Positions 1-20,501 of a stretch of 20,501 bases of DNA are shown one piece after another. The translations under genes were made by a program, and so were the position numbers. The first letter of the stretch is position 1, and every line of letters starts with the position of its first letter. The notes below the pieces were generated by a model. It saw nothing but the letters and a program-made list of their open reading frames with translations, was not told where the DNA came from and did not search any database. The stretch lies in IMG/VR virus record IMGVR_UViG_3300048554_000330, positions 1 through 20,501 of that record; one strand, 5' to 3'. This stretch comes from a virus.

Positions 1-1247
1 ATACTTTATCAGGTATAGGAAACGGAATTGCAAAATTAGCAAGAGGCATAGGCAGTTCATTATCTTCTATTGGAACAGGAATTTCAAAGTTAGCAAAAGG
101 AATTGGCAGATCAATGTCCTCTCTTGGTAAAGGTATTGGAGATTTAGGAGAAGGACTAGGTAGAGGAATTGGAAAACTAGTTGAAAGTTCTTTAAAAGGA
201 ATTGGTAAAGGACTTGCCGCAGTATCTAATCCAAAATATTTAATTGGAGCCGCAGTACTAGCCGCAACAGGTGGTGCAATGTGGATTGCTGGAAAAGCAT
301 TCCAACAGTTTGCAAATATTAATTGGGGCGGAGTAATTGCTGGAGGCATTGCCCTAGCCGCAGTAACAGCAGGTGCCGCATTAATTGGATCATCTGGTAT
401 GATTGCACCTATTCTAATTGGAGCAGTAGCAATTGGAGCTCTTGGAGCCGCACTAATACCATTTAGCTATGCCGCTAAACTTGCAGGCGAAGGAATGGTA
501 GACTTAGGTAGAGGGTTAAGAATAATTGGTGATGTTCCAATTCCAACGTTACTTGCTATAGGTCCTGCATTAGCATTAATGGGAGTAGGTTTAGCCGCAC
601 TTTCAGCCGCTGGTGCAGTAAGTTCTCTTTTAGGAGCATTCCAAGATGAAGGACCAATTGATAAAATTGTAAAAATTGCCAAAGCCGCTCCTGGTGTTAA
701 CTTAATGGCTAAGTCTTTAAGAACATTTGGTATTAACATAATGGTCTTTAACAAAGGACTTGAAGGTTTAAGTATGACAGCATTAGATGCTTTAGAAGAC
801 TTTAATGACGTTGCAAGTAATATATCACAATCTTCTGTAACTGCAATGGCAGATTTAGCAGTAGCAACTTCGTTACTTGGATTTAATATAAAAGATATAG
901 ATTGGAATCAATTAGTTTTACCAGTAGACATTGGTGAAAGATATCATAATTTAGCAGAAGGAATGGTAGCAACTGCTGAAGCAATGGATAAGATGCCTAA
1001 GCCAGGTATGTGGGACACTATTGTTGCAGGTGTAGGCAACTTGTTTGGAGTAAATGGTGGAGAACAAGGTAGCTTGACTGAGTCAGTTCAGAAAGAAAGA
1101 ACCACAACTACAACATACAGCGATGGATCTGTTGATACAAATACAGAGATGATTACAGTTCTTAAGTCTATTGACGGACATATGGGCAAAGTTACTCAGA
1201 ATACTAAGAAAGAAGTAACTGTAACAGCACCTCGCTTTGGTAGTTAA
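1..1247 (+). CDS. Glycine-zipper hydrophobic virion protein, C-terminal part (possible tape-measure-like)
   Basis: The frame is open from the left edge (first full codon at position 3) to TAA at 1245-1247, so the gene starts upstream and the ATG at 114 is probably internal. The visible N-terminal part holds three consecutive 18-residue glycine-rich units of the form S-L-S-x-I-G-x-G-I-x-K-L-A-x-G-I-G-R. These are followed by long Ala/Gly/Leu/Ile segments able to span or insert into membranes (roughly nt 235-300, 330-480 and 535-640). A more polar C-terminal third follows, with a Thr-rich stretch near nt 1100-1150. Hydrophobic helical stretches of this kind occur in phage tail tape-measure proteins and membrane-penetrating virion proteins, but no family motif settles the role. 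The gene lies directly before the portal gene, where T4 has the tail tube gene 19, so a tail-related role is plausible. It is a sure gene with an unsure function. Confidence 0.75.
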   Translation, partial: TLSGIGNGIAKLARGIGSSLSSIGTGISKLAKGIGRSMSSLGKGIGDLGEGLGRGIGKLVESSLKGIGKGLAAVSNPKYLIGAAVLAATGGAMWIAGKAFQQFANINWGGVIAGGIALAAVTAGAALIGSSGMIAPILIGAVAIGALGAALIPFSYAAKLAGEGMVDLGRGLRIIGDVPIPTLLAIGPALALMGVGLAALSAAGAVSSLLGAFQDEGPIDKIVKIAKAAPGVNLMAKSLRTFGINIMVFNKGLEGLSMTALDALEDFNDVASNISQSSVTAMADLAVATSLLGFNIKDIDWNQLVLPVDIGERYHNLAEGMVATAEAMDKMPKPGMWDTIVAGVGNLFGVNGGEQGSLTESVQKERTTTTTYSDGSVDTNTEMITVLKSIDGHMGKVTQNTKKEVTVTAPRFGS

Positions 1248-1275
1248 GTATTAATATAAAAAGGTAAGTAATAGT

Positions 1276-2940
1276 ATGGCATCATGGAAAAAACATTTTA
1301 AGATATGGGATCCCCAAGCTGAACAGACTAATAATGGTCCAAGACAGCAGGGAGGTAGTTCATCTAAGTTCGCTAGTTGGCTACAAGACGTGTACACAGG
1401 GCAACCTAACAGAGTTGAACGTTATAGTCAGTATGATCAAATGGATCAAGACTCAGAAGTTAATGCGGCCCTAGACACAATTACAGAATTTTGTACTCAG
1501 GAGGATCCTTTAACACATCTTCCTTTTGCTTTAAGATGGTCCTCGGACCCAACACCAAGTGAAAATACAACTATTAATGAAACACTTAAAAAATGGTGTG
1601 CTATTAACGGATTTGATCAAAAACTATTTAGAACTTTTAGAAGTGCTATTAAGTTTGGAGATCACTTCTTTTTACGTGATCCGGAAACATTTGAATTATA
1701 TTGGGTAAATCCAGGTGATGTTAAAAGAGCAGTAATTAACGAAGCTGAAGGTCGTAAAGTTGAACAGTATGTTATTAGTAACTTACACCCTAACTTAGGA
1801 GCAAAAGTAGCAACTAAGCCAATTGAAAGTGTTCAATCAATGGCCAATGCAGTACAAGCAGGACCAAACAATCAATATAACGTTTCAAATAGTGCTTATA
1901 AAAGTGGTAACACAGGAACCGAAGTTACAGTTGATGCAAAAGATATGATTCATATTAGTTTAAGCGAAGGCTTAGATGCTAACTGGCCTTTTGGAGCAAG
2001 TATACTTGATAGTGTTTTTAAAATTTATAAACAAAAAGAATTATTAGAAGATGCGATTATCATTTATCGTGTACAAAGAGCACCAGAACGTAGAGTGTTT
2101 TATATTGATACAGGTAATTTACCTAGTCATCAAGCAATGGGATTTCTTGAAAGAGTTAAAAACGAAATACACCAAAGACGTATTCCTACTAGATCAGGTG
2201 GTGGTACTACTATGGATGCAAGTTACAATCCTTTGAGCATTATGGAAGACTTTTTCTTTGCTCAATCAGCTGACGGTAGAGGAAGTAAAGTTGAAGTATT
2301 ACCGGGTGGAACAAACTTAGGTGAAATTGACGATTTAAAATTCTTTTCAAACAAATTAATGAGAGGTTTAAGAATTCCTAGTAGTTATATGCCTACTGGA
2401 CCTGACGATAGTGCAGTTCAATTAACAGATGGTCGTGTAGGAACAGCATTAATTCAAGAATATCGCTTTAATAGATACTGTCAGAGACTCCAAGGTTTAA
2501 TTATGCCTATGCTATGTAAAGAGTTTAAAACTTTTGTAAAGCATAGAGGTATTAATGTAGACACATCTTCTTTTGAGATTGATATGCTAGAGCCTCAAAA
2601 CTTTAGTGATTATAGACAAATTGAAGTTAATAATGCAAGGGCTAGTGTGTTTACACAATTAGCAGAAGTACCTTACATGAGTCATAGATTTAAGTTACAA
2701 AAGTTCTTAGGTTTAACTGATGCAGAGTTACTTGAAAATGAAAAACTTTGGTTAGAAGAAAATAAAAACCCAACACCAGCTGAAGGCGACGAAGAAGCTG
2801 GATTTAGCGATATTGGTGGCGGTGCCGGCGGCGGCGGACTAAGTGATGGTGATATGGACTTTGCCGACGACTTAGAAAATGCAGAACCAGCCGCAGACGA
2901 TGGTGGCGGTGAATCTGCACCTACAGAACCAGAAGCATAA
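1276..2940 (+). CDS. 20: Portal vertex protein gp20
   Basis: This is the T4-like portal protein, which forms the dodecameric ring at the unique capsid vertex, starts prohead assembly and passes DNA during packaging. At 554 aa it is slightly longer than T4 gp20 (524 aa). The diagnostic portal core is visible around residues 258-283, where E-D-A-I-I-I-Y-R-V-Q-R-A-P-E-R-R-V-F-Y-I-D-T-G-N closely matches the T4 segment. It is preceded by W-P-F-G-A-S-I-L and followed by the E-V-L-P-G-G-T-N-L-G and L-R-I-P-S-S-Y-M-P stretches. The last ~55 residues are an acidic, Gly-rich, low-complexity tail (runs of GGG, DD and EE) that T4 gp20 does not have in this form. The start is preceded by AAGG 12 bases upstream. 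The gene opens the gp20-67/68-21-22-23 order typical of T4-like phages. The identity is secure. Confidence 0.95.
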   Translation: MASWKKHFKIWDPQAEQTNNGPRQQGGSSSKFASWLQDVYTGQPNRVERYSQYDQMDQDSEVNAALDTITEFCTQEDPLTHLPFALRWSSDPTPSENTTINETLKKWCAINGFDQKLFRTFRSAIKFGDHFFLRDPETFELYWVNPGDVKRAVINEAEGRKVEQYVISNLHPNLGAKVATKPIESVQSMANAVQAGPNNQYNVSNSAYKSGNTGTEVTVDAKDMIHISLSEGLDANWPFGASILDSVFKIYKQKELLEDAIIIYRVQRAPERRVFYIDTGNLPSHQAMGFLERVKNEIHQRRIPTRSGGGTTMDASYNPLSIMEDFFFAQSADGRGSKVEVLPGGTNLGEIDDLKFFSNKLMRGLRIPSSYMPTGPDDSAVQLTDGRVGTALIQEYRFNRYCQRLQGLIMPMLCKEFKTFVKHRGINVDTSSFEIDMLEPQNFSDYRQIEVNNARASVFTQLAEVPYMSHRFKLQKFLGLTDAELLENEKLWLEENKNPTPAEGDEEAGFSDIGGGAGGGGLSDGDMDFADDLENAEPAADDGGGESAPTEPEA

Positions 2941-2957
2941 AAGGAATAAGTAAAGTT

Positions 2958-4046: not shown

Positions 4047-4685
4047 ATGAACTTACAACCATTAACAGAAAGACTATCATTCGACCAAGCGAATCTCGTT
4101 GTCGAAATGGCAGAGAATCAGGATGGTGGTAAGGATCTCTACATGAAAGGGATTTTCATACAAGGTGATAAAAAGAATCATAACGAAAGAGTTTATCCAG
4201 CAGATGAAATTTCTCGGGCAGTAGAGAGCATTAGTCAAAGACTAGCAGATGGCTTTTCAGTATTAGGCGAAGCAGATCATCCAGATGATTTACAGGTTAA
4301 CATCGACCGTGTCAGTCATATGGTTACTGAAATGTGGATGCAAGGTTCCGATGGATATGGAAAACTAAGAATTATTCCAACTCCAATGGGAAACATTATT
4401 AAAACATTACTAGAAAGCAAAGTAAAACTAGGAGTAAGTTCTAGAGGATCCGGGAATGTAGGCAACGGTGGAAACGTTTCAGATTTTGAAATTGTTACTG
4501 TTGATGTTGTAGCACAACCGAGTGCCCCTGATGCTTATCCAACTCCAATTTACGAAAGAGTTATGCTAGACAAAAGACGAGCCGCTCTTATGGATGTAGC
4601 CCTAGCGACGACTTACGATAAGTCCGCACAAAAGCACCTTGAAATTGAGGTACTTAGATTCCTTGAGAATCTTAAAAAAGTCTGA
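4047..4685 (+). CDS. 21: Prohead maturation protease gp21
   Basis: This is the T4-type prohead protease, packed in the prohead core, which cleaves scaffold, core proteins and the gp23 N-terminus during capsid maturation. At 212 aa it matches T4 gp21 in length. Two conserved blocks are visible: L-G-E-A-D-H-P at residues 73-79, carrying the candidate catalytic His78, and G-V-S-S-R-G-S-G at 129-136, carrying the candidate nucleophile Ser131 or Ser132. Both are hallmarks of the herpes/HK97-fold prohead protease group. The R-V-Y-P segment near residue 48 and the aromatic-rich strands before the His block also fit. The gene lies between the acidic core gene and gp22, and its stop codon abuts the ribosome-binding site of gp22 (GAGGAG at 4685-4690). 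The identity is secure; the exact nucleophile is inferred. Confidence 0.93.
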   Translation: MNLQPLTERLSFDQANLVVEMAENQDGGKDLYMKGIFIQGDKKNHNERVYPADEISRAVESISQRLADGFSVLGEADHPDDLQVNIDRVSHMVTEMWMQGSDGYGKLRIIPTPMGNIIKTLLESKVKLGVSSRGSGNVGNGGNVSDFEIVTVDVVAQPSAPDAYPTPIYERVMLDKRRAALMDVALATTYDKSAQKHLEIEVLRFLENLKKV

Positions 4686-4696: not shown

Positions 4697-5809
4697 ATGA
4701 GTAATGAAAACTTTACAGATTTGCTCGGCTCTGTAACATTGTCTGAAGAGGTGCGTGATAATATCAACACCGCTTGGGATCAAAAACAGATTGAAACTCG
4801 TGAAGAAGTAACAGCAGAACTCCGTGAGGAATTTGCAACACGATATGAGCACGATAAAGGTCAACTCGTTGAAGCAATGGATAAATTGATTCAAGATACC
4901 ATTTCTGGTGCTAGTGACGAGTTCAAGAAACTACATGAAGATACTAAACAATCTCGTGTAAAATATGCTACTAAGATTAGTGAAGATGCGAAACTTCTAC
5001 AAAAATTTGTTATGGAAACATTAGCAAAAGAAGTTAGTGAACTTAAATCTGATCGAGCCGCACAAAAAGAAAATTTTAAAGGCTTAGAAGAATTTGCCCT
5101 ACGCAAATTAACTAATGAGCTTTCAGAGTTACACGAAGACCACAAACAATTAGTTGAAGCTCGTGTTAAACTAATTTCAGAAGGTCGTACTGCTATCGAA
5201 GAAGCAAGATCGCAATTTATTAAGAAAGCAAGTGAAAAGGTTAACAGCCTTGTAACTGAATCTTTCAAAACTGAATTGTCCTCGCTTAAAACTGATATCC
5301 GTGAAGCAAAAGAAAACAACTTTGGACGTAAAATTATGGAGGCTTTTGCCGCTGAATTTATGTCAAGTAAGTTTGCAGATGGAACAGCAGTAAGTGATCT
5401 TAATGGAAAAATTACTGAGATGGAAGTAAAATTAGCAGAAGCACATAAAGCTATTGCTGATAAAGAACATCTCATCACCGAATCAAGTCGTTTACAGCGC
5501 CTAGCGGAAGATAAAATGACTAGATCTCGTATTATGCAAGAACTAAATGCTCCTTTATCAAAAGATAAAAGAGTTATTATGGATGAATTACTTGAGACAA
5601 CTCCAACAAGTAAACTCAATGAAGCATTCCAAAAGTACTTGCCATCAGTTCTTAACGAAGAGGTCCGTAGAGACAAGAAAGTTATCGTTGAGGGTCAACA
5701 ATCACAGAAGACTGTGGTTACCGGAAACAAACCAGCAAATAACGTAGACGAAGCTCCAGTTGAAGTTGATTCAACTATTGCAGATCTTCGTAAACTAGCT
5801 GGACTCTAA
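4697..5809 (+). CDS. 22: Prohead scaffold protein gp22
   Basis: This is the major component of the prohead core on which gp23 assembles; in T4 it is digested to small peptides by gp21. The 370-aa protein is almost wholly charged helix with long coiled-coil character (residues ~20-270), rich in Glu, Lys and Leu, with no hydrophobic core domain. It contains many L/I-x-E tripeptides, the T4 gp21 cleavage signature, among them the L-L-E-T segment in the C-terminal third. It is longer than T4 gp22 (269 aa). Its place between gp21 and gp23 and its tight spacing (11 and 16 bases to its neighbours) are decisive. The start has GAGGAG upstream. The C-terminus (T-I-A-D-L-R-K-L-A-G-L) is a short amphipathic helix, plausibly the shell-binding end. 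Confidence 0.9.
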   Translation: MSNENFTDLLGSVTLSEEVRDNINTAWDQKQIETREEVTAELREEFATRYEHDKGQLVEAMDKLIQDTISGASDEFKKLHEDTKQSRVKYATKISEDAKLLQKFVMETLAKEVSELKSDRAAQKENFKGLEEFALRKLTNELSELHEDHKQLVEARVKLISEGRTAIEEARSQFIKKASEKVNSLVTESFKTELSSLKTDIREAKENNFGRKIMEAFAAEFMSSKFADGTAVSDLNGKITEMEVKLAEAHKAIADKEHLITESSRLQRLAEDKMTRSRIMQELNAPLSKDKRVIMDELLETTPTSKLNEAFQKYLPSVLNEEVRRDKKVIVEGQQSQKTVVTGNKPANNVDEAPVEVDSTIADLRKLAGL

Positions 5810-5825: not shown

Positions 5826-7025
5826 ATGTCAGAAGCTCTTTTTGAAGCTAAAAATTGGTCCGCAACTAAAGACGCCTTAACAGAAGGTCTTAACGGACAA
5901 CGTAAATCTACAATGGAAGTTTGCTTAGAAAATACTAAAAAGTATTTGGCTGAGACAGCAACCACTGGTGCAACAGCATCTGGAAACGTAGCAGTACTTA
6001 ACAAAGTAATTCTACCAGTTATCAGACGTGTTATGCCAACAACCATCGCTAACGAATTAGTCGGTGTTCAACCTATGCAGGGACCTGTTTCTCAGATTCA
6101 TACACTTCGTGTACGTTATGCTGAGGCAGCCGCCGCTTCTTCAAACGAAGACGGTGTAGTTGGTGCAGAGGTTGTTGCTGGTGATGAAGCATTATCACCA
6201 TTTGCTATTGCTAACCAGTACTCAGGTGGTGCTGATGGTAAAGCAGACGCAACTGCTACTAAAGAGGGAACTGGTGGAAACAAAATGTCAATCCAGATCC
6301 TTAAAGAAACTGTAGAAGCTAAATCCAGAAAGCTATCAGCTCGTTGGACATTTGAAGCCGCTCAGGACGCACAAGCCATTCATGGTGTTGACGTTGAAGC
6401 TGAAATCATGGCCGCACTTGCTCAAGAAATTACTGCTGAAATTGACCAGGAAGTTATCCAGTCATTAACAGCACTTTCCGGATCTGCATTTGGTACATAT
6501 GACCAAGCCGCAGTAAGTGGTACAGCTAACTTCGTAGGTGACGAGCATGCCGCTCTTGCAGTTCTAATTAACAGAGCCGCTAACGACATTGCTTCTCGTA
6601 CAAGACGTGGTGCAGGTAACTACATTGTTGTAAGCCCAACAGCTTTAACAATTCTACAATCTGCTACAACTTCAGCATTCGCTAGAACAACTGAAGGAAC
6701 TTTTGAAGCACCAACAAATACTAAGTTTGTTGGAACACTTAACAGCTCAGTAAGAGTATACGTTAACCACTACAGTGGTGACGCGGCTCCTGTATTGATT
6801 GGTTATAAAGGTGCAAATGAAATGGATGCTCCGGCATTCTATTGCCCATACATTCCATTGATGAGCTCAGGTGTTGTATTAGATCCTAACACATTCGAGC
6901 CAACTGTCAGCTTTATGACACGTTACGGATATGTTGAGCTTTCTAACACAGCTTCATCTCTTGGTAACGCGGCTGATTATGTTAATAACATTGCAATCAC
7001 AAGCGGTAACCTTTCTTTCATCTAG
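5826..7025 (+). CDS. 23: Major capsid protein gp23
   Basis: This is the main shell subunit, with the HK97 fold. At 399 aa it is clearly shorter than T4 gp23 (521 aa). Conserved gp23 landmarks are visible: I-R-R-V-M-P...E-L-V-G-V-Q-P-M-Q-G-P at residues 66-87, and the V-E-A-K-S-R-x-L-x-A...A-Q-D...H-G-V-D-V-E-A-E block in the centre (nt 6307-6405). The E-I-D-Q-E-V-I-Q segment and a C-terminal G-Y-V-E-L-S-N also fit. A likely gp21 cut follows Glu43 (L-A-E before T-A-T-T-G), matching the L/I-x-E rule. An alternative L-T-E ends at residue 20. A strong AAGGAG ribosome-binding site precedes the start, and an intrinsic terminator follows 28 bases after the stop. No gp24-like vertex gene follows. Confidence 0.95.
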   Translation: MSEALFEAKNWSATKDALTEGLNGQRKSTMEVCLENTKKYLAETATTGATASGNVAVLNKVILPVIRRVMPTTIANELVGVQPMQGPVSQIHTLRVRYAEAAAASSNEDGVVGAEVVAGDEALSPFAIANQYSGGADGKADATATKEGTGGNKMSIQILKETVEAKSRKLSARWTFEAAQDAQAIHGVDVEAEIMAALAQEITAEIDQEVIQSLTALSGSAFGTYDQAAVSGTANFVGDEHAALAVLINRAANDIASRTRRGAGNYIVVSPTALTILQSATTSAFARTTEGTFEAPTNTKFVGTLNSSVRVYVNHYSGDAAPVLIGYKGANEMDAPAFYCPYIPLMSSGVVLDPNTFEPTVSFMTRYGYVELSNTASSLGNAADYVNNIAITSGNLSFI

Positions 7026-7843: not shown

Positions 7844-9877
7844 ATGGCAATCAAGACTAATCAAACAACAGATACACTAACTCCAAGTACTGGTACTATA
7901 ATAGTAAACTCTACTGGAGCATTAGAAGTACCTACAGGTAATACACTTCAAAGACCGGTAACACCAGGTGCAGGTGCCTTGCGTTTTGATTCTAGTTCTT
8001 CTACATTAGATATATTTGATGGATCATTATGGAATACATTAGTTTCTTTGTCTTATGTTGATACAACTGCAACAAACTTGCAAACACAGATTAATAATAT
8101 TGTTAGCAACTTAGATCCTGCAACATTAGATTCTTTAACAGAAATCGTTGCCGCTTTTCAAAGCGAAGATAACACATTACTTTCTTTGATTAATACTGCT
8201 AATACAAATATTAGTGCATTACAAACAGACTTAACACAAGAAATTAGTAATAGACAGTTTGCAGATACACTTGCAACCAACGCAAGAGCAACAGAAGTTA
8301 CTAATAGGACCAATGCTGATACATTATTACAAACTAATATAACAGCAGAAGAAACTGCTCGTATAGCACAAGACAATCAATTAGCATTAGATATTCAGCA
8401 AGAAACATCAGATAGACAAACTGCTATTTCTACATTAGATACTGCAATTACTAACGAAGAAACTGCTCGTATTGCCGCAGATTCAACTCATACTGCTAAC
8501 ATTACAACACTTTCTGGAGACTTAAACACAGAAATATCTGACAGACAAACTGCAATTACTACCGAAGCCAATGCTCGTATTGCTGGCGATGCCGCAAACG
8601 GTGCTGATATTAGCACATTAACAACAAACTTAGCAACTGAAGTAACCGACAGAACAAACGCAGACACTACATTACAAAATAATATTGATAGTAACAGTCT
8701 AAGTATATTACAAGAAATACAAGACAGAGGCGCCGCTGATACATTAATACAAACTAATCTTGATACAGAAATAATTGATAGAACAAATGCTGATACAACA
8801 TTACAAACTAATATTGATACAGAAGAAACTGATAGAATAGCCGCTGATACAGCATTACAAACTAGTATTACTACTAATACAACAAATTTAGCAACTGAGG
8901 TAACCGACAGAACAAACGCAGACACTACATTACAATCTAATATTGATGCTGAAGAAACTGCTCGTATTGCCGGAGATGCTGGCTTACAAACAACCATTGA
9001 TAACTTAGAACTAAGTGATCTAACAGATGTAACTAACACTTCTCCAACAGACGGACAGATGCTTAGTTATGATGGTACAACAGGCAACTTTAGACCACAA
9101 ACAGTAGCACTTGCTCCTGTTAATAAAAACTATGTTGGTGACGGAACAACTTTACAATTTGATTTAGGACAAGATGTTCCAAGCCCAAACAATCTTGTTG
9201 TGGTAGTTGATGGAATTGCACAGAAACCTTTGTATAGTTATGTTGTTACCAACGGAGATAAGTTAGTATTTGACGAAGCTCCAGAAAGTGGATCTATAGT
9301 TGAAGTTAGAATATTAGTAGGACAATCTACAACTGATAGACCTAGGCCTAAAATTTCAAACATTGCATACTCAGAAACTGCCGCCCCGGTTTTTAATCTT
9401 ATTACATTTAATGTTACAGAGATGACTTATGGGTTTGGTGCTAAAATAGGAACGGTTCCTATTGCACACATTGAATATCCATCAGCTGGATCTATGCAAT
9501 TAAAAACTGCCGAGACGTTTACCGGAAATCAATCTATTACATTAATTGATAATAGTGGAAACGAATTTGTATTTGAAGATGCGTTTGCAGAACCAGATGG
9601 AACTTCAAATCCATTATGGACTGATGCAAGAAAATTTATTGGTACTTTTAGTGCCGGAGACAGCATTAATTACACAATAGGTGTAAATAGCACGTCAACA
9701 TTGACTCTGGGTGCAACATCATCCCAGGAAACTGCTCCGACTTGGTTGTCGGTTAGTGGTTTAACTCTTGTAGGAACTGCACCAACATTGAGCAGTCCTT
9801 GCAGATACGAGTTCCAAATAATTGCAACAATAGGCAGTAAGAGTATATCTCGTAATTATTGGCTTGTTGTAATTTAA
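7844..9877 (+). CDS. Coiled-coil fibre protein with C-terminal Ig-like domain
   Basis: This 677-aa fibre has four visible parts. Residues ~1-70 form a Gly/Thr-rich head module (T-G-N-T-L-Q-R-P...L-R-F-D...F-D-G-S-L-W-N-T-L). Residues ~85-390 are a long trimeric coiled-coil type shaft with a recurring E-E-T-x-R-I-A-x-D-x-x-L-Q-T-x-I unit, alternating with T-D-R-T-N-A-D-T-T-L-Q. Residues ~425-495 are a V-G-D-G-T...F-D-L-G-Q module containing V-D-G-I-A-Q-K-P-L-Y-S-Y, related to the C-terminal module of the next gene. The C-terminal ~175 residues end in A-P-T-W-L-S-V-S-G...L-V-G-T-A-P, like putative Ig-fold domains. The start follows the holin-like stop by one base, so translation is probably coupled. 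Attachment to tail, baseplate or capsid is not known. Confidence 0.82.
   Translation: MAIKTNQTTDTLTPSTGTIIVNSTGALEVPTGNTLQRPVTPGAGALRFDSSSSTLDIFDGSLWNTLVSLSYVDTTATNLQTQINNIVSNLDPATLDSLTEIVAAFQSEDNTLLSLINTANTNISALQTDLTQEISNRQFADTLATNARATEVTNRTNADTLLQTNITAEETARIAQDNQLALDIQQETSDRQTAISTLDTAITNEETARIAADSTHTANITTLSGDLNTEISDRQTAITTEANARIAGDAANGADISTLTTNLATEVTDRTNADTTLQNNIDSNSLSILQEIQDRGAADTLIQTNLDTEIIDRTNADTTLQTNIDTEETDRIAADTALQTSITTNTTNLATEVTDRTNADTTLQSNIDAEETARIAGDAGLQTTIDNLELSDLTDVTNTSPTDGQMLSYDGTTGNFRPQTVALAPVNKNYVGDGTTLQFDLGQDVPSPNNLVVVVDGIAQKPLYSYVVTNGDKLVFDEAPESGSIVEVRILVGQSTTDRPRPKISNIAYSETAAPVFNLITFNVTEMTYGFGAKIGTVPIAHIEYPSAGSMQLKTAETFTGNQSITLIDNSGNEFVFEDAFAEPDGTSNPLWTDARKFIGTFSAGDSINYTIGVNSTSTLTLGATSSQETAPTWLSVSGLTLVGTAPTLSSPCRYEFQIIATIGSKSISRNYWLVVI
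8642..8935 (+). repeat. 36-base exact direct repeat within the coiled-coil shaft
   Basis: The 36 bases at 8642-8677 recur exactly at 8900-8935, 258 bases (86 codons) apart, in the same frame. They encode the V-T-D-R-T-N-A-D-T-T-L-Q unit. Other copies of this unit, such as those near 8300 and 8780, have diverged at DNA level. Confidence 0.85.
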
Positions 9878-9996: not shown

Positions 9997-12900
9997 ATGC
10001 CTTTAATTAAAGCACGTTCGAGTTCGTTGATGAACTCAATTGATTTAAGAGGTACTCCGACTGCCGCTACTGCCGCCGCTGGTACATCGACTACCCAGCT
10101 TGCGTCAACAGGCTTCGTGTCAACAGAAATTAGCAACTTAGTTAACTCCGCACCTACTCTTCTAGATACATTAGACGAATTAGCCGCGGCGATTGGCGAT
10201 GATGCCAGTTTCTCTACCACGATGACAACAGCACTATCGGAAAAAGTAGCATTAGCAGGTGGTACAATGACTGGAGCATTAGTGCTCTCAGGTGCACCAG
10301 CCAATGACCTCGAAGCATCAACAAAGAAATATGTTGACGATGGATTATTAGCTCAGCTAATTTCTTCAACAGACGATGTTCCAGAAGGAACAAACAATCT
10401 TTATCATACAACTGCAAGAGTAAGAGCAGGAATTACTTTATCATCAGATAACACTACAGTATTAGATTACGATAGTGCCACTGGTGTTATTGCATATGCT
10501 CATCCTACTACTGCTGGTATTATAGAAGATGCATCAAACTTGTACTATACAGATGCTCGTGTTAGAGCCGCTATCTCATTAACAACAACAGATAGCACAA
10601 TTTTATCTTATAGTAATACAACTGGTGCATTTACTTTCGCAGAGCAAGATACTGATAAAGTTGATGAAGGTTCAACAAACCTTTATTTTACAACTACAAG
10701 AGCGAGAGATTCTGTGAGTGCAGGTACTAACGTTACATACAACTCAGCTACTGGTGTTATTTCAGCAGACGGTGCGGTTGTTAGTGTTAACGGTGCTGAC
10801 GGTATTGTTACAATAGGAACAGATGATGTAGATGAAGGTTCAAGTAACTTATACTTTTCAGATACTAGAGCAAGAAATGCTATTAGTTTAACAAGTACTG
10901 ATACAAACACACTATCTTATAGTGCTGGAACTGGTGTACTTACATATACAAAACCAAATTCAGATGGTATTGCAGAAGGTACAACTAACCTTTACTTTCT
11001 TGACAGTAGAGCAAGAGCCGCAATTAGTGCCTCTGGAGATGTTGCTTACAACTCAACTAGTGGTGTAATTACATTTAACATGGCTGATCACGATACTGAT
11101 GATTTAGCAGAAGGTACAGCTAACCTTTACTTTCTTGACAGTAGAGCAAGAGGTGCAATTAGTGTAGCAGGATCTTTAGCATACAATTCTACAACTGGTG
11201 TTATTTCTTATACAACTCCAGATACTGACGGTGTAGACGAAGGTAGTTTAAACCTTTACTACACAGATGCTAGAGCAAGAGCTTCAATTAGTGCAGGTGG
11301 TGATTTAAGTTATGTTTCTAGTACAGGTGTTATGTCTTATACAACTCCAGATACAGATGGTATTACTGAAGGATCTGTTAACCTTTACTATACAGATGCT
11401 AGAACAAGAGCCGCAATTTCTGTAACAGGTGATTTGACATACAATGGTACAACAGGTGCAATTGGTTTTGCATTAGCAGATCATACAACAGCCGACTTAG
11501 CTGAAGGAACTAACCTTTACTATCTTGATAGTAGAGCAAGAGCCGCTATTTCAGTTTCAGGTGCCGCATTAGCATATGATAATACAACTGGTGTTCTTTC
11601 TACAAACGCATTAGTAGCAAGTGTTAACACTAAAACTGGTGTTGTAACATTAACTACAGATGATATTAACGAAGGTTCAACTAACTTGTACTATACAGAT
11701 GCTCGTGTTAGATCTGCTGTTTCATTAACTTCAGACGATACTACTGTTCTGTCATATAGTTCAGGAACTGGTGCATTTACATACGCCAAGCCTAACACAG
11801 ACAAAATCAGTGAAGGTACAACTAACTTGTATTTCACAGATGCTAGAGCAAGAGCCGCATTTTCTGAAGGAACAGGTGTATCGATTACAGCTGGAGAAAT
11901 TGCTATCGGTCAGGCCGTTGCTACAACAGACAATGTTACATTTAATGACCTTGTTGTTGATGGTGACTTAACTATCAATGGTACAACAACTACCGTTAAT
12001 ACAGCAACATTAGATGTTGAAGATATTAACATTACAGTAGCAAAAGGTGCCGCATCAGCGGCGGCCGCTAACGGTGCTGGTTTAACAGTTGATGGTGCCG
12101 CGGCAACTATCTTGTATGTTTCTGCAACTGACACTTGGGACTTTAACAAAGACGTTAAAGGAACATTTATTGGTGATTTAACTGGTGATGTTGTTGGTGA
12201 TTTAACTGGTGATGTAACTGGTACAGTTTCAGACATTAGTAATCATGACACAGATGCTTTATCTGAAGGTACAGCTAACTTGTACTACACAGATGGTAGA
12301 TCAAGAGCCGCTATTAGTGTAAACTCAACTGAACTAGGTTATGACAACTCAACAGGTGTTATAACATATACTCAAGGTAATACTGATGGTGTTGCTGAAG
12401 GTTCAACTAACTTGTACTTCTCAGATGCTAGAGCAAGAGGTGCAATTAGTGTATCAGGCGATATGACCTACAATTCTACAACAGGCGTTATTGGTTTTGC
12501 ATTAGCAGATCATACAACAACTGACTTAGCTGAAGGTGATAACAAGTATTACACAGATGCAAGAGCAAGAGCTTCTATTTCCGTTACAGGTGATTTAGCT
12601 TATGTAGCAGGAACAGGTGTTATTTCTTACTCAACACCAGACACAGACGGAGTTACAGAAGGAACAACTAACCTTTACTACACAGATGCTCGTGTTAGAG
12701 CGGCTATTAGTGGTAGTGGTGACATTGTGTATGATAGTGCAACAGGTGACTTTGCATACTCAACTCCAGATACTGACGGTGTAGACGAAGGAACAACTAA
12801 CCTTTATCATACAACTGCTAGAGCAAGAGCAACAATAAGTGCAAGTGATGACTTAACTTATGATAGTGCAACTGGTGTCATGACATTTAAGATGTCTGAT

Positions 12901-13824
12901 CATGATACTGATGATTTATCTGAAGGTACAGCTAACTTGTACTACACAGATGCAAGAGTACATAGTGCGATTTCATTAACATCAGATGATCAGGATATTA
13001 TGTCTTATGATAACGCAGGTGGATTCACATTTGCTATCGGCAACATGGATACTGATGATGTTACTGAAGGTACATCAAATCTATACTTTACAACTGGTAG
13101 AGCGAGAGCTTCTGTAAGTGCTGGTAGTAACATTAGCTATGATAGTGCAACTGGTGTTATTTCAACATTAGCCGCAGTTCAGAGTGTTAATGGTGCAACT
13201 GGTGTTGTTGTTATTGGAACTGATGACGTAGATGAGGGATCAAGCAATCTTTACTATACAGATGCAAGAGCCCAAGCCTCTATTACAATGGTTTCTGATG
13301 ATACAACAATTCTAAGTTATGCTTCAGGTACTGGAACAATAACATATGTAACTCCGGATACAGATGCTATTAATGAAGGTTCTGTTAACGAATACTTTAC
13401 CAATGCAAGAGCTGATGCTCGTATTGCCGCGGCAAGTATTGATGACTTATCAGATGTTGATACAGGTTCTCCCGCTGACGGTGCCGCTCTTGTTTGGAGT
13501 TCATCAGGTCAGAAGTATGTAACAACCGACTTATCAACTACAACTACAGCCGCTAACTTTACAGCTAACGGTACTGATACAGACTTTGACTTAACCAGTG
13601 TTGTAGTCGACTCAATCGAAAATACCACCGTGTTTATTAACGGTATTTTCCAAGCACCAACATATTCATACACTATTTCAAATGATGGTACTGATACTAC
13701 TATTTCCTTTGATGCCGCTCCAGAAGCTAACGACATTATTACAGTTCGTTATATTTTAGGTGGAACATTGAATACTGATGGTATACTTAACGAAAGCTCA
13801 ACAATTGATGGTGGTACTTACTAA
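9997..13824 (+). CDS. Giant repeat fibre protein (20 tandem ~45-residue repeats)
   Basis: This 1275-aa probable tail fibre opens with a module of ~115 residues containing T-L-L-D-T-L-D-E-L-A-A-A-I-G-D-D and S-T-K-K-Y-V-D-D, common in phage fibres. From residue ~125 to ~1144 come 20 units of roughly 43-48 residues of the form D-x-V-x-E-G-S-x-N-L-Y-Y-T-D-A-R-A-R-A-A-I-S...L-x-Y-x-S-x-T-G-V-I. Units 3, 9 and 18 carry a longer S-V-N-G/T linker. After unit 11 there is a ~100-residue insertion with D-G-D-L-T-I-N-G and a G-D-L-T-G-D-V repeat. The C-terminal module (about residues 1180-1255) holds I-N-G-I-F-Q-A-P-T-Y-S-Y and ends S-T-I-D-G-G-T-Y. AAGGA precedes the start. There is no self-cleaving chaperone domain. 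Host recognition is inferred. Confidence 0.85.
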   Translation: MPLIKARSSSLMNSIDLRGTPTAATAAAGTSTTQLASTGFVSTEISNLVNSAPTLLDTLDELAAAIGDDASFSTTMTTALSEKVALAGGTMTGALVLSGAPANDLEASTKKYVDDGLLAQLISSTDDVPEGTNNLYHTTARVRAGITLSSDNTTVLDYDSATGVIAYAHPTTAGIIEDASNLYYTDARVRAAISLTTTDSTILSYSNTTGAFTFAEQDTDKVDEGSTNLYFTTTRARDSVSAGTNVTYNSATGVISADGAVVSVNGADGIVTIGTDDVDEGSSNLYFSDTRARNAISLTSTDTNTLSYSAGTGVLTYTKPNSDGIAEGTTNLYFLDSRARAAISASGDVAYNSTSGVITFNMADHDTDDLAEGTANLYFLDSRARGAISVAGSLAYNSTTGVISYTTPDTDGVDEGSLNLYYTDARARASISAGGDLSYVSSTGVMSYTTPDTDGITEGSVNLYYTDARTRAAISVTGDLTYNGTTGAIGFALADHTTADLAEGTNLYYLDSRARAAISVSGAALAYDNTTGVLSTNALVASVNTKTGVVTLTTDDINEGSTNLYYTDARVRSAVSLTSDDTTVLSYSSGTGAFTYAKPNTDKISEGTTNLYFTDARARAAFSEGTGVSITAGEIAIGQAVATTDNVTFNDLVVDGDLTINGTTTTVNTATLDVEDINITVAKGAASAAAANGAGLTVDGAAATILYVSATDTWDFNKDVKGTFIGDLTGDVVGDLTGDVTGTVSDISNHDTDALSEGTANLYYTDGRSRAAISVNSTELGYDNSTGVITYTQGNTDGVAEGSTNLYFSDARARGAISVSGDMTYNSTTGVIGFALADHTTTDLAEGDNKYYTDARARASISVTGDLAYVAGTGVISYSTPDTDGVTEGTTNLYYTDARVRAAISGSGDIVYDSATGDFAYSTPDTDGVDEGTTNLYHTTARARATISASDDLTYDSATGVMTFKMSDHDTDDLSEGTANLYYTDARVHSAISLTSDDQDIMSYDNAGGFTFAIGNMDTDDVTEGTSNLYFTTGRARASVSAGSNISYDSATGVISTLAAVQSVNGATGVVVIGTDDVDEGSSNLYYTDARAQASITMVSDDTTILSYASGTGTITYVTPDTDAINEGSVNEYFTNARADARIAAASIDDLSDVDTGSPADGAALVWSSSGQKYVTTDLSTTTTAANFTANGTDTDFDLTSVVVDSIENTTVFINGIFQAPTYSYTISNDGTDTTISFDAAPEANDIITVRYILGGTLNTDGILNESSTIDGGTY
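10369..13430 (+). repeat. Array of 20 in-frame coding repeats, ~129-168 bp each
   Basis: Each unit contains E-G-(S/T)-x-N-L-Y-(Y/F/H)-x-(D/T)-x-R-x-R or a close variant. Most units have diverged at DNA level. Units 5 and 6 share 32 identical bases (10986-11017 and 11121-11152, 135 bp apart). Units 8 and 13 share a 30-base identity (11461-11490 and 12490-12519). Confidence 0.9.
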
Positions 13825-13907: not shown

Positions 13908-13938
13908 CCTTGTATACTATTACTCAAAGGATAAATGC

Positions 13939-16461
13939 ATGCCACTTTTTAGAGGTCAACTAAAGCACATTAGGGGTTTAACAGACTATAAAGATAGCGT
14001 TCTTGTAGCCTCAACAAATAATGTTGGAGTAACATCAACTATATCTTCTGTTGATGGAGTTACTTTATCTGAAGGAGATAGAATACTTCTAGTAGGACAA
14101 ACTACTACAACAGAAAATGGCATCTATGCAAGTCAATCTAACGGAACAATAGCAAGAGCATTTGATGCAGATAGTACTGAAGAGTTTTCTTCTGGTATGA
14201 CTGTTTATGTTGAACAAGGAACTAGTAATGGCAAGAGCACTTGGCTCTTGATAACAACTGGAGAGATTGTTTTAGGTACAACCTCTCTTCAATTCCAAAA
14301 GCAATCGCAGATATATGATTCTCTTGAAGGAACATATGGCGGAGCATCAAAATCTTTAACTTTAGGAATACAAAAAAACGGAGTTATTACTACTGTAACT
14401 GAAAATACATTAGATTCAGATAATGTAACTGAAGGATCATCAAATCTTTATCATACAACTGCAAGAACTAGAAGTTCAATATCAGCCTCTGGTGGTAATT
14501 TAAGTTATAATTCATCAACTGGTGCTATGTCATTTAGCTCTGCAAGTTTAACTCCAGGTACAGGTATTTCTGGAGATAATTTTGACACTTCAACAAACAG
14601 AACATTTGCTATTGATACATCAGTAATACCGACATTAAGTTCTGGTGTTTCTGTCTTTACAAATGATGCCGGATACATTACAGGTTATACTGTTACTGAA
14701 AGTGATGTTACAACTCATCAAGCGGCTTTAAGTATAACCGAAAGCCAAATTAGTGATTTATCAAGTTATATTACAGCTAGTTCAACAGACACATTAACTA
14801 ATAAAACGATTGGTGCGTCAACAATTTCAGGAAACTTAATTCCAGATACAACAGAAACATACGACCTTGGATCGTCAACTTATAGATTTAATGACCTTTA
14901 TCTAGCAGGTAGTACTATTGACTTAGGCGGTGCTAAACTAACAAATGATGGTAGTGATAACCTTGATATTAAAGATAGTTCAGGTAATAGAAAAATACTT
15001 AGAGCAAGTGCTATTGAATTGGTAGATAGCTCCGGTAAAAAAATTAAAATTGAACGAGACGCCACTTCAGGTAAAATGAAATCACGTAAATTTGATTCAA
15101 GTGGTAATGCAGAAGCAGATGGAGATGACGTTAACGAAATATCAGAAGACAAAACACCACAACTAGGCGGTACATTAGATGCTAATGGAAATTATATTGA
15201 TATGGGTTCAAACAACATCACAGATACAAAAGTTGGCCAATGGGATACCTCATACGGCTGGGGAGACCATGCAAGTTCAAATTATCTAACAGATTATACT
15301 GTTACGGAATCAGATGTTACTGGACACCAATCAGCACTAAGCATAACTGAATCACAAATTAGTGATCTAGACGATTACCTCCCAATAACTTTATCAACAG
15401 TGGTTGATTCGCGAGCCGACATTGATTCAATCTCTCAAATACGTTTTATTTTAGACGAAACTACTTCTGGTTCGCAAGGTAATATATCAAATACATCAAG
15501 TTATAATATTGCTTTGTCTGTTACCAATTCCTTTATAGGATACGATACCTCAGGAATATTTTATTTAAGCGACAGCAATCGTGGAACATACGAAGACATA
15601 ATTCTAAGGACAAATGGAGTAGGTACCAGCGCCAACGGTTTTGCTAATCCGTCAGGTGCCACTAGTATATTTGGTTTTAGAGGTAACTCAGCTACCACTG
15701 GCAATAGATCCCTTACAACTGCAAGTATTAATACATCAAGTTATACAAAACTTGGTTTTGACATAATCCAAGGTACTGGCAGTAACGGTGGTGAAGGTAC
15801 TGACAGTGGTGATGATTTTAAAATCTACTATAGTACTAACAGTGGCTCAAGTTACACACTTATGCAAACATACTATGGAAGTCCAAGAACATATTCCTCC
15901 TGGACTACTGTATCAATTGCTTTACCATCAGGCGCTATAGGAAGTAGTGTTAAATTTAAATTTGAAAACATTCATACTGCTAGTGGAGACTTTGATCATT
16001 GGGCTATTAGTAAAGTTAATTTCAACACTACAGAAACTACTGTTCCATACTTTCGATTAGATGTAGGAAGTGGAACAGTTATAGATTCTCTTGAAAATAG
16101 TACAACTTTTACAGGCAGTTTAGTTGGTAATGTAACTGGTAATGTAACTGGTAATGTTGCAGGCAACCAGTCAGGTGGTTCGGTTAGTGCAACTTCGGGT
16201 TCCTTTAGTAGTAATTTACAAAGTAATGGTAATTTTTATGCTAATGGATCATATACCTATCTAGCAAATAATACTAACGATAGAGTTTATATAAGAACTC
16301 CGCTATTTTATTTCAACAATGTCTTAATTACAGCCACAGGAACTGAACTTAATTATGTAGATGGTGTTACAAGTAATATTCAAACACAACTTAATACCAA
16401 AGCATCTCTTACTGGTACAGAAACCTTGGATAACAAGAGCATAGACGGTGGTTCTTTCTAA
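13939..16461 (+). CDS. Modular fibre protein with jelly-roll-like region
   Basis: This is an 840-aa fibre. Residues ~20-127 form a recognisable phage fibre head module (V-D-G-V-T-L-S-E-G-D-R-I-L-L-V-G-Q...T-E-N-G-I-Y...F-V/Y-V-E-x-G-T). One copy of the neighbour's repeat lies at ~163-205 (N-V-T-E-G-S-S-N-L-Y-H-T-T-A-R). A unit T-V-T-E-S-D-V-T-x-H-Q-x-A-L-S-I-T-E-S-Q-I-S-D-L occurs twice (nt 14689-14760 and 15298-15369). Residues ~555-700 look like an all-beta ligand-binding domain (D-F-K-I-Y-Y-S-T-N-S-G...D-H-W-A-I-S-K-V). A V-T-G-N-V-T-G-N spacer follows, then T-E-L-N-Y-V-D-G-V-T-S-N-I-Q-T-Q-L near the end, and a final S-I-D-G-G-S-F. AAAGGA precedes the start. Tail-fibre or adhesin function is inferred. 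Confidence 0.83.
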   Translation: MPLFRGQLKHIRGLTDYKDSVLVASTNNVGVTSTISSVDGVTLSEGDRILLVGQTTTTENGIYASQSNGTIARAFDADSTEEFSSGMTVYVEQGTSNGKSTWLLITTGEIVLGTTSLQFQKQSQIYDSLEGTYGGASKSLTLGIQKNGVITTVTENTLDSDNVTEGSSNLYHTTARTRSSISASGGNLSYNSSTGAMSFSSASLTPGTGISGDNFDTSTNRTFAIDTSVIPTLSSGVSVFTNDAGYITGYTVTESDVTTHQAALSITESQISDLSSYITASSTDTLTNKTIGASTISGNLIPDTTETYDLGSSTYRFNDLYLAGSTIDLGGAKLTNDGSDNLDIKDSSGNRKILRASAIELVDSSGKKIKIERDATSGKMKSRKFDSSGNAEADGDDVNEISEDKTPQLGGTLDANGNYIDMGSNNITDTKVGQWDTSYGWGDHASSNYLTDYTVTESDVTGHQSALSITESQISDLDDYLPITLSTVVDSRADIDSISQIRFILDETTSGSQGNISNTSSYNIALSVTNSFIGYDTSGIFYLSDSNRGTYEDIILRTNGVGTSANGFANPSGATSIFGFRGNSATTGNRSLTTASINTSSYTKLGFDIIQGTGSNGGEGTDSGDDFKIYYSTNSGSSYTLMQTYYGSPRTYSSWTTVSIALPSGAIGSSVKFKFENIHTASGDFDHWAISKVNFNTTETTVPYFRLDVGSGTVIDSLENSTTFTGSLVGNVTGNVTGNVAGNQSGGSVSATSGSFSSNLQSNGNFYANGSYTYLANNTNDRVYIRTPLFYFNNVLITATGTELNYVDGVTSNIQTQLNTKASLTGTETLDNKSIDGGSF

Positions 16462-18089: not shown

Positions 18090-18115
18090 TTTTTAAACTA
18101 ATAGGAGTATAAGAT

Positions 18116-18328
18116 ATGGCAAACGCCTTTCCAGCTACTGGGTCTACAAAATCAATGGGTCGTATCAGAAGAGGATTTGTTGCTTCTGGTAGTCACTATG
18201 CAACTGGAGGCTTCACATTAAGAGGTACTTTAGGAGGCTACTTAGGTATTACTAGTGGCGCGGTATCAATTAGTTCAACATTTGGAGGTTACTACTCACC
18301 AAATTCAACTGATGATTCTGACAACTAG
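18116..18328 (+). CDS. Small Gly/Ser-rich protein after the fibre block
   Basis: This is a 70-aa protein with no Cys. It has a short basic patch (M-G-R-I-R-R-G-F) near residue 15, then Gly/Thr/Ser-rich beta-like sequence (G-G-F-T-L-R-G-T-L-G-G-Y-L-G) and an acidic C-terminus (D-D-S-D-N). No family is recognised. The ribosome-binding site TAGGAG is good and the gene follows the S74 fibre by 26 bases, so it is probably co-transcribed from the 16512 promoter. It is followed by a terminator. A small virion or fibre-associated protein is the likeliest guess from position only. Confidence 0.65.
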   Translation: MANAFPATGSTKSMGRIRRGFVASGSHYATGGFTLRGTLGGYLGITSGAVSISSTFGGYYSPNSTDDSDN

Positions 18329-18359
18329 GCTTTAACACAGACCCTAATATAGAGTCACC

Positions 18360-18387
18360 GAAAGGAGCAGAAATGCTCCTTTCTTTA
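18360..18387 (+). terminator. Intrinsic terminator with GAAA tetraloop
   Basis: GAAAGGAGCA (18360-18369) pairs perfectly with TGCTCCTTTC (18374-18383), closing a GAAA tetraloop. TTTA follows. It ends the fibre transcript. Confidence 0.87.
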
Positions 18388-18444
18388 TGGCTAGAACACC
18401 ACATAAAAAGTTAGATATATAGTAACGAGTCAAAAGGAGGCACC

Positions 18445-18969: not shown

Positions 18970-18970
18970 A

Positions 18971-19618: not shown

Positions 19619-19988
19619 AAAAGAATCCACACCATCTATGCAACTTTTTTAAGTTAATCCCAGCACTAATATGAAATTCTGGTAGAGAAACATTATTAAC
19701 AACATTCCTCATTAATACACCATCAATGACTGTACTTTTTACAAGTTTAGCCTTTAGGTTAGTATCTTCGCATATAATTTGTATAATTGGATGGTTCCAG
19801 TTTTCGTCAAATATAATCTTTCTGGCTTCTAAGTACCAACGTTCTGTGTAGCAAATATTATCTTTATATAACTTGTTTAACAGAGGATTATTCAATCTTT
19901 CTTCGTTACACAATGTAAATTGCATCTGTTTATGGGGACCACTGTAAAACTCAGCTGGAATTTTATCTTTAACTAATTTTAAACTCAT
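19566..19988 (-). CDS. Unrecognised 140-aa protein
   Basis: The reading frame could start at GTG 19991 or at the adjacent ATG 19988; ATG is preferred. The protein is soluble, with aromatic and basic patches (G-P-H-K-Q-M-Q-F-T-L near the start, then R-W-Y-L-E-A-R-K and N-W-N-H-P-I-I-Q-I). The C-terminus is rich in Trp, Phe and Leu. No catalytic motif is recognised. It is co-oriented with the Nudix gene and overlaps its end by 20 bases, implying translational coupling and a shared role. At its own 3' end it overlaps the glycosyltransferase by 53 bases. No other frame covers 19619-19968, which supports its being real. Confidence 0.7.
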   Translation of the reverse strand: MSLKLVKDKIPAEFYSGPHKQMQFTLCNEERLNNPLLNKLYKDNICYTERWYLEARKIIFDENWNHPIIQIICEDTNLKAKLVKSTVIDGVLMRNVVNNVSLPEFHISAGINLKKLHRWCGFFSSLPDSTKILVDLNDQC

Positions 19989-20406
19989 CACTTAGTATAC
20001 TCTTTAACGTTTCTTTAAATGCTCTGCTCTTGAACATTTTTCCTGTATTATAATGGAGTGGTGACGGCCATGAATTTAGTTTAACCCAACAGTATCCAGC
20101 ACTCTCGTTGTTTAATATAGGATTAAATTCTTCCTCGCATAAAACAGCATAACTTACATGCCTAAAATGTCGATTTCTTGTTGTGAATGTATAGATATGA
20201 CTGATACCAATAGTATCAGGAACTCCTGGATGTCCGAGTTCTTCGACTAGCTCTCTTTTAAGTCCTTCTAAGTCGCCTTCGTTGCCTATGAGTTTTCCTC
20301 CCCATAACCCCCAACACATACTATGACGCTCTTCTTCACTTCTTAATTGCATCATCGCTCTTTGTGTTTTCTGGCATATAATTAATGCTCCTACTGCTCT
20401 TAACAT
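19969..20406 (-). CDS. Nudix hydrolase
   Basis: This 145-aa protein has a complete Nudix box at residues 37-58: G37, five residues, E43, seven residues, then R51-E-L-V-E-E-L-G58. This fits G-x5-E-x7-R-E-U-x-E-E-x-G-U exactly up to the last position. Nudix enzymes hydrolyse nucleoside diphosphates linked to another group, such as oxidised nucleotides, nucleotide sugars, NADH or RNA caps. The box gives chemistry, not substrate. N-terminal strand residues (R-A-V-G-A-L-I-I-C) and a Trp-rich stretch before the box (C-W-G-L-W-G-G-K-L) fit the fold. A GGAGGA lies about 18 bases upstream, inside the preceding partial gene, so its use is doubtful. T4-like phages often encode such enzymes for nucleotide housekeeping during infection. 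Confidence 0.9.
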   Translation of the reverse strand: MLRAVGALIICQKTQRAMMQLRSEEERHSMCWGLWGGKLIGNEGDLEGLKRELVEELGHPGVPDTIGISHIYTFTTRNRHFRHVSYAVLCEEEFNPILNNESAGYCWVKLNSWPSPLHYNTGKMFKSRAFKETLKSILSDEFKIS

Positions 20407-20413
20407 GATAAAA

Positions 20414-20501
20414 CTAGTTAACTATCCTCCAATAACCTTGTTCAAATATTCCTTCTATTGCTATTACCCAAGTTTCTCCGTCGTAATACAACTTCTCACC
20501 T
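20414..20501 (-). CDS. C-terminal fragment of a further minus-strand gene
   Basis: From the right edge an open frame (first full codon 20500-20498) reads 28 residues, beginning G-E-K-L-Y-Y-D-G-E-T-W-V-I and ending Y-W-R-I-V-N, then a stop at 20416-20414. It ends seven bases before the Nudix start and shares its direction, so it looks like the upstream member of the same operon. Too little is visible to name it. Confidence 0.5.
   Translation of the reverse strand, partial: GEKLYYDGETWVIAIEGIFEQGYWRIVN

Follow-up and report, generated by a model that had tools for sequence, protein, structure and literature searches.

Near-complete absence of GCWGC from a jumbo T4-like phage and a neighbour rule for the words that survive in its relatives

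Introduction

Virulent double-stranded DNA phages avoid the palindromes recognized by type II restriction enzymes, a phenomenon established by Rusinov et al. (2018, PMC6286503) and included in a review covering restriction-site avoidance (PMC12707154). In the parts of the former article considered here, sites occurring at less than 0.1 of expectation are termed eliminated, which applies to 7.1% of its type II sites. Excerpts of a study on lake prokaryotes report methylation of GCWGC and AGCT and name TseI as GCWGC-specific (PMC6329791), in agreement with a preliminary description of the DNA analysed below, which regarded GCWGC as a recognition site of known restriction types. This DNA is a 20,501-base stretch of virus record IMGVR_UViG_3300048554_000330 (positions 1 to 20,501, the full length of the record), referred to in its whole length as the window, from which the word GCWGC (GCAGC or GCTGC) is almost entirely missing.

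Among viral DNA modifications, the 7-deazaguanine modification of phage CAjan reportedly depends on DpdA, occurs in GGC and GA contexts and blocks restriction, and the Chlorella virus enzyme M.CviPII methylates CCD. A phage carbamoyltransferase, as described in part of one report (PMC8670742), acts on 5-hydroxymethylcytosine.

Results and Discussion

GCWGC is missing from the window and from the rest of its genome

The window, with a G+C content of 37.65% (estimated beforehand at about 37%), contains one GCAGC and no GCTGC, next to 55 GCCGC and 17 GCGGC. These exact counts agree with those read by eye in the preliminary description (a single GCAGC at 6126-6130 in gp23, no GCTGC, and more than 50 of the related GCCGC/GCGGC words). 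Against the one site observed, a maximal-order Markov model predicts 29.6, giving GCWGC the lowest z of all 5-mers in the window (-6.6). The Poisson probability of finding at most one site is 4e-12 at this expectation and 1e-23 at the 56.9 sites expected from codon shuffling; the shortage noted beforehand is real, although the dozen or more sites then expected was too low a figure. Markov models and codon shuffles are the null models used here, while the published method uses Burge compositional bias instead. Alanine (Ala) codons preceding another Ala are GCC (55), GCG (15) or GCA (1), and those preceding other residues GCA (298), GCT (189), GCC (46) or GCG (18), bearing out the earlier impression that Ala-Ala pairs are written GCC-GCN or GCG-GCN and single Ala codons mostly GCA or GCT. 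The depleted stretch and its remaining site are located as follows:

1-20501, no strand: GCWGC-depleted stretch, equal to 41888-62388 of contig G001 (IMGVR_UViG_3300017786_003484), 99.94% identical
6126-6130, plus strand: the only GCWGC (GCAGC) of the window, within the gene for the major capsid protein; surrounding sequence GAGGCAGCCGC, with HGGC on one flank and GCCD on the opposite one

Nearly all GCWGC sites expected in the coding part of the window (55.5 of 56.9) fall in phase 0, that is in frame, with an intergenic expectation of only 0.6, and the dependence on phase was therefore analysed on the whole of contig G001 (244,432 bases). The contig contains two GCWGC sites, the second at 229784, versus 242 expected under the Markov model, or 0.8% of expectation. 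In comparison with 200 synonymous codon shuffles, observed and expected sites are 2/240 in phase 0, 0/14.2 in phase 1 and 0/13.4 in phase 2, and intergenic DNA contains none of the 10.3 expected (Markov). Both the window (1/29.6) and the contig (2/242) thus lie below an observed-to-expected ratio of 0.1 at expectations above 15, and the loss extends over the three coding phases and non-coding DNA. Between G and C, glutamine is always encoded by CAA (46/46) and never by CAG (0/46), which elsewhere makes up 641 of 2,544; after NGC, AGY serine is always AGT (34/34) and cysteine always TGT (19/19).

The main alternative raised in the preliminary description was a codon-pair preference at Ala-Ala junctions, in which GCC-GCN would be favoured by features of translation or messenger RNA, and GCWGC would disappear as a side effect. 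The concentration of expected window sites in phase 0 would suit it, yet it is rejected because out-of-frame and intergenic GCWGC are lost as well, and we regard it as exceedingly improbable. Neither a normal frequency of GCWGC in the rest of the genome nor a loss confined to in-frame Ala-Ala junctions, each named beforehand as contrary to restriction escape, was observed, with two sites in 244 kb and phases 1 and 2 and intergenic DNA all empty.

Other palindromes resembling restriction sites have been lost or nearly lost from G001 (TACGTA 0/30, GCTAGC 1/28, GTGCAC 1/20; observed/expected, as in all fractions of this kind below), and AAGCTT is likewise avoided. CASTG is reduced to 76/243 in the same contig and is not linked to any enzyme here.

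The absence of GCWGC is near-complete, genome-wide, phase-independent and, as described below, lineage-specific, which supports the escape from restriction proposed in the preliminary description. We infer that the window is part of a jumbo T4-like phage whose lineage encountered a type II restriction endonuclease that cleaves GCWGC, and that selection removed the sites genome-wide, a reading to which we assign a probability of roughly 0.88. At Ala-Ala junctions the sites would have been removed chiefly through synonymous substitutions, GCW-GCN becoming GCC-GCN or GCG-GCN, in response to an enzyme presumably met in a host. This would be an extreme case of a known kind of phenomenon. Two points weigh against it: neither a host, a restriction gene nor methylation data were found for the phage of the window, and the methyltransferase families PF00145, PF01555 and PF02086 are absent from G001, which fits avoidance and is no proof of it. 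Host prediction via the TRAP permease gave distant matches only, the best full-length bacterial ones at 46-47% identity, among them metagenome-assembled genomes of freshwater Alcaligenaceae. Host-like genes of G001, at about 110-170 kb, comprise those for a TRAP transporter (DctP/DctQ/DctM), TctC, a Gram-negative porin, Vut_1, a Clp protease and a malonyl-CoA decarboxylase domain.

Loss of GCWGC varies among the relatives of the phage

Genes of the window with T4-type matches are the following:

1276-2940, plus strand: portal protein (T4 gp20 type; phrog_213, E 1.9e-107)
4047-4685, plus strand: head maturation protease (gp21 type; phrog_207, E 2.1e-59)
5826-7025, plus strand: major capsid protein (gp23 type; phrog_138, E 6.7e-98), used as query for relatives

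The capsid protein is closest, among the phages listed, to jumbo phages such as Phosso, PA5oct and 121Q (62-66%). A long protein with internal repeats lies at 9997-13824, with several internal blastn matches of 74-94% identity at about 10.5-13 kb.

The capsid search gave at least 599 loci, of which the best 80 were used. GCWGC is absent from some of these relatives, normal in many and intermediate in others, a variation brought out by the comparison with related phages that the preliminary description had proposed. Within the small clade of the window it goes from 0/34 in G002 (L003) through 35/78 in G003 and 95/147 in G004 to 159/160 in G005. Five named relatives, each represented by a 40-kb piece, all contain GCWGC at close to the expected number, and among three unrelated phage families 0 of 60, 47 and 62 loci (169 loci) were flagged for loss of GCWGC or GCN7GC, 60, 47 and 59 of them having a GCWGC expectation of at least 7; these counts, and those of the second scan below, comprise loci of at least 7 kb. 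Of the 15 GCWGC sites of the relative L006 that can be aligned to the window none is kept, six being now GCCGC or GCGGC, a small difference from the control GCWGW sites, 6 of 29 of which are kept.

The set of missing words also changes from one relative to another. G027 (196,581 bases; L095-L104) lacks GCWGC (0/161), AGCT (0/327) and RCATGY (0/45); G021 has normal GCWGC in its genes (345 versus 324 expected), with AGCT at 49/444 and CTTAAG at 0/21. Such lineage-specific sets of lost palindromes are as expected from changing host restriction enzymes. An array of 18 transfer RNA (tRNA) genes occurs in G021 (L112:4263-10158); G001 has seven scattered tRNA genes and G027 none.

A phage could also make a sequence-specific nuclease that destroys host DNA and keep its own genome free of the target. 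G001 does encode proteins matching HNH and PDDEXK nucleases, which might have such a specificity, but the avoidance of several palindromes per genome, in sets that vary among relatives, suits a changing host arsenal better, and a nuclease of the phage itself is very unlikely to be the cause.

Rows of an 81-row capsid tree were assigned by hand to class A (all GCWGC gone, 9 rows), class B (15 rows, considered below) or the rest (51 rows), with the six ambiguous rows omitted (L007, L009, L011, L028, L039, L048); two of the nine class A rows, the window and L002, are one phage. The tree requires 6 changes for class A, 9 for class B and 14 for the three states together, that is, several gains or losses of the GCWGC-free state.

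Surviving words in many relatives follow a neighbour rule

In about 15 partially depleted relatives the loss is uneven and follows neighbour context, HGCWGCD being gone and GGCWGC and GCWGCC kept (0/90 versus 94/51 in G004, 2/106 versus 51/44 in G024, and 0/56 versus 25/22 in G039). Uniform partial depletion is rejected for these loci; some others, for example L009, L027, L053 and L011, are truly intermediate. A GC half-site is here called shielded if it lies within HGGC (GCCD on the other strand), and open if it lies outside HGGC/GCCD. Many relatives have lost GCWGC, GCGC, GCNNGC or GCN7GC solely at places where neither GC half-site is shielded, shielded sites being kept at or above expectation or, for GCGC, mostly at a third to two thirds of it.

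GC pairs at fixed spacing d were counted against codon shuffles. Open pairs in G001 are lost at d 0 (0/60) and d 1 (0/194) and partly at d 2 (32/70); in G027, at d 0, 1, 2 and 7 (0/38, 0/149, 0/38 and 1/135); in G022, at d 0, 2 and 7 and more weakly at 1 (0/47, 5/42, 11/149 and 26/135, overlapping stretches removed); and in class B, at d 1 only (12/426). Four control genomes show ratios of about 0.6-1.3 at the same spacings. Open GCGC is zero in all five tabulated class A genomes and in G007 and G022, and GCGC flanked by G/C on one side stands at 0.3-0.9 of expectation. Owing to overlap, parts of G022 and G015 entered the counts twice (2.9 kb of G022, and more of both contigs in the CTGCAG/CGCG and gene-block counts); the recount of G022 without overlap left the picture unchanged.

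A GCN7GC site in G027 is nearly always lost if it has no protective neighbour (1/141), and any one neighbour exempts it, be it an outer G (53/25), inner C (38/16), inner G (55/24) or outer C (31/16). A simple fixed 7-base site is weakened as a description by this exemption at inner and outer positions and by the spacings 2 and 7. Protection is conferred by AGGC, CGGC and TGGC and not by GGGC (GCN7GC 2/9.9 and 1/9.9, class B 2/23.5, GCGC 0/8.2), and the protective unit is therefore HGGC/GCCD. Since GGGC pairs show no shortage at spacings free of avoidance (20/21.8 at d 7 in G001; 11/15.9 at d 7 and 29/13.8 at d 2 in G024), this failure to protect does not reflect a general scarcity of GGGC.

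In six class B genomes, Ala-Ala junctions in open context contain GCW 11 times out of 441 (2%), as opposed to 161 of 205 where the second codon is GCC, 76 of 105 after G and 6 of 10 where both apply. The Ala codon thus depends on bases outside the pair (2% open versus 60-79% after G or before GCC), a further point against codon-pair preference. The few open GCWGC of the class B genomes G003 and G041 lie on the capsid-side stretch (4/4 and 5/5, of two stretches each; L004:9113-11140 and L080:7062-17756), as would result from recent recombination with a phage that lacks the avoidance.

In the window, the GCGC and GCATGC words of the tolerated class are:

5497-5500: GCGC, GCCD context
8730-8733: GCGC, HGGC and GCCD context
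15629-15632: GCGC, GCCD context
15932-15935: GCGC, HGGC context
18258-18261: GCGC, HGGC context
6545-6550: GCATGC, GCCD context
13937-13942: GCATGC, GCCD context

All GCGC of the window are shielded (5/5), with no open one versus 6.8 expected, as are both GCATGC (2/2). Both remaining GCWGC of G001 are of the shielded type too, which is suggestive only.

A DNA modification may account for the spared sites

The common exemption across four spacings would be explained by a modification of the phage DNA at HGGC/GCCD. Such a modification would block several enzymes that read GC half-sites, so that only open half-sites would be targeted and purged. From sequence patterns, we see an even chance that the DNA of this clade is modified in this undescribed manner and that restriction has cleared away open GC half-sites spaced by 0, 1, 2 or 7 and left the shielded ones, with a conserved block of radical-SAM and carbamoyltransferase genes as first candidate for the enzyme.

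The rule was recorded before a second capsid scan, in which 30 further loci of 7 kb or more were found, 11 of them with an eliminated pair type. Shielded pairs in these loci are at 138/71 for GCN7GC, 25/49 for GCWGC, a mix of sparing and non-sparing loci, and 28/51 for GCGC. The open pairs (1/70, 0/141 and 0/48, respectively) are low by locus selection; as the loci were chosen for depleted open pairs, a test is provided by the shielded and GGGC figures alone. The four GCN7GC loci among them (L445, L446, L447, L449) are close to G027 in their capsids (87-95%) and not independent of it.

A number of results weigh against shielding. Shielded GCWGC is gone as well from G001 (2/67.7) and G027 (0/37.3); the neighbour rule does not govern the GCWGC of the window's lineage, and its GCWGC enzyme would therefore have to be insensitive to the shield. 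Shielded GCGC is reduced in G001 (41/63) and G027 (16/52), nearly gone in L449 (2/11.1) and gone in L473 (0/12.6), and neither shielded GCTAGC in G001 (0/4.6) nor shielded GCATGC in G027 (0/3.4) survives. CTGCAG is not spared in G001 (shielded 1/7.7, open 28/68), G041, G015 or G046; in G021 one site is left of about 63, doubly shielded. Among RaK2-like loci, 6 of 20 eliminate GCGC and have lost its shielded form too (0/31.9), as seen over the whole of record G043 (open 0/94.5, shielded 0/30.4), hence sparing is not common to every GCGC-cutting enzyme. For CGCG, the move towards GCC/GCG at Ala-Ala junctions is a confounder that inflates GCCGCG and CGCGGC, and under a wider definition the results are mixed (shielded 15/9.8 and open 9/65 in G024; shielded 4/9.2 and open 10/43 in G022), so that CGCG was not relied on as an independent test. 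A pooled tetramer ranking at surviving sites, in which words containing GGC/GCC come out high (CGGC/GCCG 146 versus 63, AGCC/GGCT 113 versus 52, with CCGC/GCGG and CCGG also high), is subject to the same confounding. Unrelated families could not test the shield, as they do not avoid these pairs; in seven cyanophage loci without or nearly without GCGC the flanks are mixed.

Two other explanations bear on the neighbour rule only. If the phage DNA were unmodified, the enzymes themselves could read longer sites (HGCWGCD, HGCN7GCD), which would explain class B GCWGC alone and accommodate spared and unspared cores in one genome, such as GCN7GC and GCWGC in G027; moreover, every clearly spared core ends in GC. 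However, the rule recurs at spacings 0, 1, 2 and 7, each of the four neighbour positions suffices, GGGC is not exempt, the GCGC-eliminating RaK2-like phages have no exemption, and it would be strange for an enzyme to recognize "not HGGC" at every half-site, all of which makes longer sites rather unlikely. Conversely, GC outside HGGC/GCCD could be the modified form, closely spaced modified pairs being cut by a host nuclease of the BisI/GlaI type. The forbidden unit is indeed a pair of GC half-sites, and BisI-family enzymes, according to excerpts of the literature, cut GCNGC with modified cytosines. On the other hand, AGCT in G027 and AAGCTT, GTGCAC and GCTAGC in G001 are avoided though they contain the supposedly modified GC, and the modification motif would have to be the complement of a simple one. 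We also know of no modification-dependent pattern with spacing 7, which counts against such a nuclease, and we find this explanation decidedly improbable.

Candidate modification genes

Among 42 records of the first set, PF00145, PF01555 and PF02086 were found in 0, 2 and 0, respectively, both PF01555 carriers being GCWGC-normal; G027, like G001, lacks the three families. PF00145 occurs in 0 of 5 further clade records and in both RaK2-like records (2/2). A generic match to Methyltransf_24 occurs in G001.

No DpdA homologue was found when a nine-sequence profile was run against 9,736 open frames, fragments included (best E 1.1), and a DpdA-type deazaguanine modification was rejected accordingly. 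A PF01702 search is powerless in this regard, missing the DpdA of CAjan itself, and the single-sequence search had no positive control. As to the preQ0 pathway, G001 has PF06508 (55 C-terminal positions only), PF02592 and PF01242, its genes being QueD-like, partial QueC-like and Vut_1, and G027 has only PF02592.

A gene block at about 159.1-169.6 kb of G001 (L089:19093 to L090:9647) encodes five radical-SAM-like proteins (two over Pfam's cut-off), a carbamoyltransferase and three further proteins without family. At E 1e-5, six of its open frames are matched in G027, while G043 matches none; the majority of these six recur in G024, G021, G015 and G046. The carbamoyltransferase domain (PF02543/PF16861) is present in 11 of 25 records, including G001, G027, G024 and G039; G022, G015 and the two RaK2-like records lack it. 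Against a role as modifier, G022 shows the shield without having the domain, unless its contig is incomplete; G021 and G046 carry the carbamoyltransferase without an evident shield. The block is a candidate only. G001 also has PF01503; PF00303 was not found in it among the Pfam matches listed (the best 25 of 27 to 65, for part of the proteins of at least 110 amino acids).

Comparison with known systems

The loss of GCWGC, taken alone, is a strong case of a strategy already known. The neighbour rule goes further: for phages represented here by environmental contigs alone, it predicts that the DNA is modified, at which tetranucleotide, and that the modification protects; some sites of the relatives may be shielded by a modification that matches no known one considered here. 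If true, avoidance patterns would serve as a detector of hidden DNA modification from genome sequence alone, and both the restriction enzymes met and the phage's own modification would be readable from composition for many environmental genomes.

The proposed modification resembles the DpdA system in being dependent on a site context that includes GGC and in blocking restriction, and G001 has the QueD-like, partial QueC-like and Vut_1 genes; it differs in that no DpdA homologue was found among the open frames searched and GGGC is unprotective. With M.CviPII it shares the CCD contained in GCCD and the same exclusion of CCC, but the C5-methyltransferase family PF00145 was found in neither the 42 first-set nor the five further clade records, and other CCD sites such as GGTACCD are unspared in G027. 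HhaI (GCGC), Cac8I (GCNNGC) and MwoI (GCN7GC) presumably match the forbidden spacings 0, 2 and 7, and to our knowledge enzymes of the TseI, HhaI, Cac8I or MwoI type do not spare HGGC/GCCD flanks. The GCWGC specificity stated for TseI in the excerpts used matches spacing 1 (PMC6329791). The 5-hydroxymethylcytosine carbamoyltransferase of PMC8670742 has a counterpart in the PF02543/PF16861 domain of the conserved block, and PF01503, found beside the enzyme in the modified contigs of that report, is present in G001; in the clade, however, the neighbours are radical-SAM-like instead of including a hydroxymethylase of thymidylate-synthase-like type, and the enzyme of that report is described as lacking sequence specificity.

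In the literature searched on avoidance, jumbo phages and flanking or modification context, mostly at surface level and with few subscription journals, neither the neighbour rule nor a report of GCWGC loss in jumbo phages was found, the GCWGC match in PMC11094077 being a primer sequence. As in the avoidance described by Rusinov et al. (PMC6286503, in the parts considered), the phage of the window has nearly eliminated short palindromes of orthodox type II enzymes. Unlike in that description, GCWGC here falls to 0.8% of expectation over 244 kb, close relatives differ from one another, and the loss in relatives depends on HGGC/GCCD.

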